Part shown: positions 4,343 to 5,342 of the stretch, piece by piece
How positions within the stretch are numbered: position 1 is the first letter of the stretch
Layout: each line of letters begins with the position of its first letter
Assembly (NCBI RefSeq): GCF_014647475.1
Contig: NZ_BMPG01000002.1
Coordinates: 1-64,000, forward strand
Origin: Halocalculus aciditolerans
GTDB lineage: Archaea; Halobacteriota; Halobacteria; Halobacteriales; Halobacteriaceae
Length of the DNA stretch: 64,000 bases
Direction: 5' to 3'
Notes under the pieces: model-generated
Databases searched by the model: none
The model's input: the letters and a program-made list of their open reading frames with translations, nothing else
Told to the model about the DNA's origin: nothing
Translations under genes and position numbers: made by a program

Positions 4343-4348
4343 TTTATG
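4343..4348 (+). promoter_or_regulatory. TATA-like element before micro-ORF and FtsZ-like gene
   Basis: TTTATG at 4343-4348 is centred about 29 bp before the ATG at 4375, the spacing of a leaderless haloarchaeal transcript. It suggests the mRNA begins at the micro-ORF start codon. Confidence 0.4.
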
Positions 4349-4374
4349 AGGGCCGCGCACCGGATACCACCACG

Positions 4375-4416
4375 ATGGCGGGCGCGGGACGCGAGGCGCG
4401 GAGGGAGCGCGCGTGA
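4375..4416 (+). CDS. Arg-rich 13-residue upstream micro-ORF
   Basis: ATG at 4375 opens a 13-codon frame (MAGAGREARRERA) whose TGA stop overlaps the GTG start of the next gene as GTGA. It sits about 29 bp after a TATA-like element, so it could be the first cistron of a leaderless mRNA that delivers ribosomes to the FtsZ-like gene. This may instead be chance; only position and overlap support it. Confidence 0.3.
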   Translation: MAGAGREARRERA

Positions 4417-5342
4417 CCGGAGAGCGCTCGCTCCGCGCCGCCCTCGACGCGCTCGCCGACTCCATCGTCGTCCGCGGCTTCGGCCCCGCCGGCCACGCCG
4501 CCACCGACACCGACGTTGCCACCGATACCGACGCGGACACGGACACTGACGCGGACACCGCGAGCGACGGCGACTCACACCCTGCGGGGGCGAGCGCGGT
4601 TCCCGCACACGTGGACGCGACGGCGGTTTTCGCCGCCGTGGAACTCGGCGACGCGACCGGGGACGCCGTCGCGGCCGTCGACGCGCTCGCGCCCGACACG
4701 CTCGGCGTCGTCGTCGCGGCCGTCCCCGACGGCGGCCTGAACCAAGAGGCGTGGGCGGCGCTCCGCGACCTCCGCGCCGCGGCCGACGCCGTCGTCCTCG
4801 TCGGCGGCCACGGTGACGCCGAAACCGCGCTCCGAGCGGGCGTCGCGGTCCTCAGAGACATCGTCGAGGGCGTCGGCGTCGTGAACCTCGACCTCGCGGA
4901 CCTCCGCACCGTCCTCGGCGACCACGACCTCGCCGTCCTCGCGAGCGGGCACGCGGACCCCGGCGACGCGAACGCGGCCGTCGTCGGCCGGACGCTCGAC
5001 GCCGCCCCGCCCGGGTTCGGGTTCGCGCAGGCCCCGACGGTCCTCGTCCACGTCGTCGGCGGCCCCGGCGTCACCGTCGAAACCGCGGGCGACGTCGTCG
5101 CGGGCGTCCGCGAGCGCGTCGCGTCCGACGCCCACCTCATCTGGGGCGCGACCGTCGAGGACGACCGCGACCCGGACGCCCTCGACCTCACCGTCGTCGT
5201 CGGCGGCGTCGAACCGCTCGCCGGCCCCGACGACCCCTGCCCGCGCTGTGGCACGCCGCTCGTCGGCTACTCGCTCGGCGAGCGCTCTACGACCTTCTGC
5301 GAATCCTGCGGCTACACGGGCGTCGAACGCTCGCTCCGCTGA
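4413..5342 (+). CDS. Degenerate FtsZ-family protein with C-terminal zinc ribbon
   Basis: A 309-residue protein. Residues about 95-268 follow the tubulin/FtsZ order: a VVVAAVP strand, a T7-like loop VNLDLADLRTVL (157-168, keeping N158, D160 and D163), and the C-terminal-domain motif LIWGATVEDD (242-251). The glycine-rich T4 GTP-binding signature GGGTGTG is absent; the aligned region reads ELGDATGDAV. Residues 31-50 are an Asp/Thr/Ala repeat. The tail holds two CxxC pairs (C276, C279, C296, C299), a zinc ribbon. GTP hydrolysis seems unlikely; a role modulating FtsZ or CetZ is speculation. The GTG start overlaps the upstream micro-ORF stop. Confidence 0.7.
   Translation: MTGERSLRAALDALADSIVVRGFGPAGHAATDTDVATDTDADTDTDADTASDGDSHPAGASAVPAHVDATAVFAAVELGDATGDAVAAVDALAPDTLGVVVAAVPDGGLNQEAWAALRDLRAAADAVVLVGGHGDAETALRAGVAVLRDIVEGVGVVNLDLADLRTVLGDHDLAVLASGHADPGDANAAVVGRTLDAAPPGFGFAQAPTVLVHVVGGPGVTVETAGDVVAGVRERVASDAHLIWGATVEDDRDPDALDLTVVVGGVEPLAGPDDPCPRCGTPLVGYSLGERSTTFCESCGYTGVERSLR

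Follow-up and report, generated by a model that had tools for sequence, protein, structure and literature searches.

Our main finding is a family of haloarchaeal proteins that, as judged from their sequences, are FtsZ1 paralogs failing the tests of a functional FtsZ—a GTPase domain, the GGGTGTG signature, and a tail peptide—and that may nevertheless work on FtsZ. On balance, we lean toward the view that each member is a one-sided, donor-only protomer, which would dock on the nucleotide face of FtsZ1 by way of its T7 loop, in the monomer or at a filament end, and thereby regulate it.

Protein architecture and predicted fold

The founding gene lies in the window, which is the whole 64,000-nucleotide stretch of Halocalculus aciditolerans DNA that was analyzed, at the position where an earlier note had placed it, and encodes 309 aa. 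Its features (window coordinates) are the following.

4343..4349, +, TATA-like box TTTATGA, a putative promoter
4400..4404, +, Shine-Dalgarno-like GGAGG
4413..5342, +, FtsZ-like zinc-ribbon gene, 309 aa, GTG start, TGA stop
4464..4499, +, S1 strand and T1 loop remnant IVVRGFGPAGHA (aa 18-29); FtsZ1 counterpart ITVVGCGGAGSN
4509..4598, +, acidic Thr-Asp linker (aa 33-62), replacing S2-T2-H2-S3-T3-H3
4641..4670, +, T4 loop position (aa 77-86), ELGDATGDAV for GGGTGTG
4881..4916, +, T7 synergy loop and start of H8 VNLDLADLRTVL (aa 157-168), with N158, D160, D163, and T166
5019..5213, +, FtsZ C-terminal domain PF12327 (aa 203-267)
5136-5165, +, LIWGATVEDD (aa 242-251), within the PF12327 domain
5232..5312, +, C-terminal zinc ribbon (aa 274-300), replacing the FtsZ tail peptide

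The GTG start at 4413 is plausible because GGAGG lies 8 nt before it, and because homologs and FtsZ1 align from the same point. Further upstream, TTTATGA is a possible promoter. About 30 nt downstream of it lies a 13-codon open reading frame, MAGAGREARRERA (4375-4416), the TGA of which overlaps the GTG of the FtsZ-like gene, and which is possibly a leaderless, translationally coupled leader. The gene is preceded by an open reading frame that is TrkA-C-like by eye and an antiporter of the Na/H exchanger family (PF00999), and followed by one gene without Pfam match and one MobA-like gene. Since canonical FtsZ1 and FtsZ2, both with GGGTGTG, are encoded on the same 875-kb contig (G000, 3.38 Mb genome), the FtsZ-like gene is a third gene rather than a contaminant or a replacement.

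Profile searches with the protein matched the FtsZ C-terminal domain PF12327 (FtsZ_C; 2.6e-8, 34.5 bits against a cut-off of 27), the zinc finger PF06827 at aa 274-299 (1.5e-6, 28.4 bits against a gathering score of 21.3), and TIGR00065 (ftsZ) at aa 133-267 (2.6e-11, 43.4 bits, well short of the equivalog cut-off of 295.2), while the closest solved relative by sequence was M. jannaschii FtsZ (4.7e-12). These matches show that the likeness to FtsZ is not due to chance. The GTPase-domain model PF00091 was matched neither by this protein nor by any member of the family scanned (0/26), in a search in which FtsZ1 and FtsZ2 of the same genome, used as controls, scored 3.5e-50 and 7.6e-45. By contrast with PF00091, PF12327 was matched by all 26. 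No scanned member matched Tubulin_2 (PF13809), and our profile scans of the protein found no tubulin-superfamily model other than FtsZ_C and ftsZ. The motifs that the earlier note had read from the letters were borne out: the T7 loop VNLDLADLRTVL holds N158, D160, and D163; LIWGATVEDD falls inside the PF12327 match; ELGDATGDAV lies opposite T4 when the protein is aligned with FtsZ1 and FtsZ2 of its own genome; and the two CxxC pairs, C276/C279 and C296/C299, are covered by a PF06827 match above gathering score. These pairs form two knuckles ~16 residues apart, a ribbon of the zf-FPG_IleRS type that is predicted to bind zinc. It occupies the place where the alignment lacks the FtsZ tail peptide, whether of the DIDYVE type found in FtsZ1 or the GLDVIR type found in FtsZ2.

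AlphaFold models of two distant members, built from the family alignment, show the FtsZ fold that the earlier note had proposed to look for. Mean pLDDT and pTM were 84.1 and 0.79 for the H. aciditolerans protein, and 84.7 and 0.81 for a member of the most divergent clade. For both models the best Foldseek matches in the PDB were FtsZ structures (E ~7e-16 and ~8e-16, TM ~0.5-0.6), with M. jannaschii FtsZ as the top match, and the moderate TM values probably reflect the reduced GTPase domain and the added ribbon. The acidic Thr-Asp linker, which is found only in the H. aciditolerans member, was modeled with very low confidence over aa 36-62, as in disordered stretches.

Conservation and segment loss

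Across 32 aligned members, whose pairwise identity spans 24-96% (mean 0.43, minimum 0.24), eight residues outside the ribbon are invariant (V20, N158, D160, D163, T166, V212, W244, and G245), as are eight within it (C276, P277, R278, C279, Y286, C296, C299, and G300); a 26-member alignment gave the same list. The T7 triad and T166 are the sole invariant polar residues outside the ribbon, and four of the eight invariant nonribbon columns fall within one 10-column stretch of T7 (hypergeometric p = 1.5e-4). N158, D160, D163, and T166 are likewise invariant in FtsZ1. Aligning homologs at T4 and T7, which had been suggested in the earlier note, thus gave opposite outcomes for the two loops: GGGTGTG occurs in 0/32 members, and the N, D, and D of T7 in 32/32. 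No homolog retains the canonical signature, the retention of which the same note had named as a result that would count against its reading, and no alternative start within the open frame restores GGGTGTG.

Comparison with FtsZ1 shows where sequence has been lost. The S2-H3 region shrinks from 61 residues in FtsZ1 to ~19 in the family, and T6/H6-H7 from 24 to ~6.5. Identity to FtsZ1 is 0.16 in S4-T4 (versus 0.81 for FtsZ2) and 0.12 in H7 (versus 0.55), and rises in T7/H8 to 0.55, the same value as for FtsZ2. Relative to FtsZ1, H2/T2/T3, T4, T5, and the H6-H7 loop are lost or degenerate, leaving an H1-like helix, while the donating face—T7, H8, S9, and H10—is retained, with S9 and H10 at full length. 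In Staphylococcus aureus FtsZ, H10 of the top subunit contacts the H6-H7 loop of the bottom subunit, and likewise S9 contacts T5, H8 contacts T3, and T7 contacts H1-H2 (PMC8936486). The elements lost or shortened in the family (H6-H7 loop, T5, T3, and H2) all lie on the bottom-subunit side. Because it is mainly the accepting side that has been lost or degraded and the donating side that was kept, we arrive at the donor-only model.

Descent and selection

The phylogenetic tree, which compared the family with FtsZ1 and FtsZ2, was first built with the ribbon columns and then redone without them. Without ribbon columns, the 32 members form one clade (support 100/99) that falls on the FtsZ1 side; FtsZ2 is set apart at 100/100. 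FtsZ1 is monophyletic at 91/51 when the ribbon columns are included and not monophyletic without them, and long branches were flagged. The N-terminal (T)DEEL...VVGxG stretch of FtsZ1 is still present in several members. Sequence and tree together place the descent of the family in the FtsZ1 lineage, either beside or inside FtsZ1. Between close pairs, dN/dS is 0.13-0.55 and falls below 1 in all 15 pairs; the family is constrained, though not strongly in the Halorubrum branch.

A proposed role on FtsZ and its alternatives

In the model that we favor, a protein of FtsZ1 origin that presumably can neither bind GTP nor self-polymerize would bring its T7 loop up to the GTP bound by an ordinary FtsZ subunit, with FtsZ1 as the likeliest partner. 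Occupying the nucleotide face of a monomer would sequester it, occupying the nucleotide-exposed end of a filament would cap it, and completing the active site of the partner would trigger GTP hydrolysis, so that the net effect might be to regulate the Z-ring or to activate its GTPase. In S. aureus FtsZ, the catalytic water and the ions are coordinated by T7 residues N208, D210, and D213, and mutating any of the three abolishes assembly (PMC8936486). The zinc ribbon that replaces the FtsZ tail could be a fold-stabilizing or partner-binding module setting where and when the protein acts. The fuller version of this model—a pseudo-subunit with a donor face only, positioned by its ribbon, that acts in trans as a GTPase activator or as an FtsZ1 end cap and represents a new class of regulator—strikes us as credible without quite being probable.

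The donor-only idea itself goes back to the earlier note, and much of it stands: family-wide conservation and the pattern of lost segments strongly support an FtsZ paralog that kept T7, lost the GTP-binding signature, and gained a ribbon, and that could therefore serve solely as the T7-donating partner of normal FtsZ. What probably does not stand is the suggestion that such a subunit could bind the plus end. A T7-only subunit could meet just the nucleotide-exposing (top) face, and in S. aureus FtsZ the growing end has tentatively been assigned to the T7-exposing face (PMC8936486). If growth does occur there, the filament end within reach of a T7-only subunit is the shrinking end. The term "plus end" follows the convention used for tubulin and, in kinetic terms, is probably the wrong end. 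Free GTP-bound FtsZ monomers would be equally reachable targets.

Other readings were weighed against this model. The FtsZ fold might have been reused as a scaffold for a non-FtsZ function, with the ribbon, as a binder of nucleic acid or protein, carrying the main activity and T7 binding a metal, a small molecule, or a protein; its residues could have been retained for some such ligand. We consider this unlikely, yet it has several points in its favor, namely that no cell-division genes adjoin the family across genera, that the ribbon shows the same degree of invariance as T7, that the same genome encodes a similar ribbon on its own, as a 58-aa protein (L154), and that in S. aureus FtsZ the T7 loop is a K+-binding site (PMC8936486). 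However, the exact catalytic triad together with the retained donor-face elements is difficult to account for unless there is an FtsZ-like partner. Folding does not depend on the triad, since S. aureus FtsZ D210N still crystallizes in the FtsZ fold (PMC8936486), and T7 retention is no default in degenerate proteins, since the nonpolymerizing FtsZ of Nitrosopumilus maritimus has lost both GGGTGTG and T7 (PMC3684127).

Two further readings seem weaker still. That the remodeled pocket still binds nucleotide or polymerizes, making the protein a divergent filament former or a subunit co-polymerizing within FtsZ filaments, is improbable: T2, T3, and T6 are largely deleted, T4 is degenerate in 32/32 members, PF00091 is matched by 0/26 members scanned, and a subunit that lacks an acceptor face would stop a filament rather than extend it. 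These losses have to be set against a T1-like GxG/GxGxxG remnant in several members (VVGVGEAGE, VAGCGEVGR, and VVGCGALGT) and a nearly invariant G22. Least credible of all is that we are looking at a decaying FtsZ1 duplicate on its way to becoming a pseudogene. Although the long branches, a decayed copy (G336) with stops and lost cysteines, and dN/dS values reaching 0.55 would fit, this reading is largely refuted by motifs that are invariant among 32 intact members at 24-96% identity, to which must be added a domain gain conserved in all members and a dN/dS below 1 in 15/15 pairs.

Relation to known systems

The family shares with archaeal FtsZ1 (PF00091 plus PF12327, TIGR00065) the C-terminal domain, the NxDxxD motif of T7, and the overall fold, and differs from it by the missing PF00091 match, GGGTGTG, T2/T3/T6, H6-H7 loop, and tail peptide, as well as by the added zinc ribbon. 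Haloarchaeal FtsZ2 and CetZ belong to the same Tubulin/FtsZ superfamily, and we know of no FtsZ2 or CetZ with a zinc ribbon. FtsZ2 keeps T4 and T7, whereas the family keeps only T7 and branches with FtsZ1 rather than FtsZ2. The absence of GGGTGTG is a likeness to N. maritimus FtsZ, but the latter lost T7, which in the family is invariant and occurs alongside canonical FtsZ1 and FtsZ2. The Tubulin_2 families (PF13809; Makarova and Koonin 2010, as summarized in PMC9871819) also comprise diverged FtsZ relatives from prokaryotes that carry additional domains; they lack FtsZ_C, whereas our family has FtsZ_C and matches neither PF13809 nor PF00091.

The proposed pseudo-subunit would be the FtsZ counterpart of the one-sided capping subunits of other cytoskeletons. 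FtsZ filaments are one-stranded and polar, and to our knowledge no regulator that uses FtsZ's own fold against one face has been described. SulA binds the T7-side (bottom) face of FtsZ. The same face is bound by MciZ (PMC8936486). Both occupy one longitudinal face of FtsZ, as we propose for the family, but their folds are unrelated to it, and the family would instead take the top face, where the nucleotide lies, and could contribute catalytic residues. Having a T7 face alone, such a natural protomer would be a tool for determining the growing end of archaeal FtsZ filaments, for seeing whether T7 supplied in trans suffices for hydrolysis, and for learning how FtsZ1 and FtsZ2 are tuned against each other in haloarchaea. 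We found no published description of the family in the open-access literature, the scope of our search. One extensive survey of how FtsZ and tubulin evolved gathered its sequences by PF00091 (PMC9871819) and would therefore miss the family, in which PF00091 is unmatched in 26/26 members scanned.

Distribution and gene neighborhoods

The 32 members come from 31 sampled genomes and the metagenome-assembled genome (MAG) QS_9_67_17, and represent six haloarchaeal genera. Two overlapping samples, 392 genomes from the order and 391 from the class, together comprise ~439 distinct genomes; searched with a profile, they yielded the 31 carriers (~7%), scattered over these six genera and three families. 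Among them are Halorubrum yunnanense, rubrum, cibi, aquaticum, aidingense, and alkaliphilum, MAG QH_7_66_36, and Halobellus captivus, which the genome sample groups in one genus with Halorubrum. Separation was wide, since members scored ≥231 bits with the 26-row profile and canonical FtsZ1 ≤144. A 295-genome sample of the phylum added no members. This patchy distribution and the decayed copy in one Halorubrum genome (G336:C51, L058/L115), which has in-frame stops and has lost cysteines, show that the gene is dispensable. Member-bearing genomes each have two further FtsZ matches; nearly every genome of the order has FtsZ1 and FtsZ2, and their co-occurrence with the family is therefore uninformative. 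Plasmid and phage records contained no match, and a mobile-element origin was rejected on that ground.

No operon or cell-division neighborhood is common to all genera. Neighbors are conserved only within genera, so that the gene looks like a stand-alone unit, and operon logic was rejected for want of a pathway shared across genera. As identified by eye, the neighbors are an oxidase and a secretion-type ATPase in Halorubrum, a MATE-like transporter in genus g33, and GH32-like glycosidases with an actin-like gene in genus g25. In all seven g25 genomes (L108-L114) the actin-like gene lies within ~6 kb of the FtsZ-like gene, which could be plain within-genus synteny. At one locus (L101, G288:C1:2344385-2357221), canonical FtsZ1 is ~4.5 kb away.

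The 58-aa protein, which is the nearest other zinc ribbon in the H. aciditolerans genome (L154:1498-1674; G000:C1 ~320774-320950), is encoded between a 206-aa open reading frame, which has no Pfam match and appears ribbon-helix-helix-like by eye, and a gene that is actin-like by eye (L154:1742-2773, - strand). In Halorubrum aidingense, a similar small-ribbon protein and a similar open reading frame are found ~1.3 kb downstream of the FtsZ-like gene (L100:8275-9134). Other degenerate FtsZ paralogs were also sought, and third FtsZ matches, where readable, keep both GGGTGTG and T7. Extra FtsZ paralogs with both motifs and unusual tails occur at L173 and L174 and in other haloarchaeal genomes.
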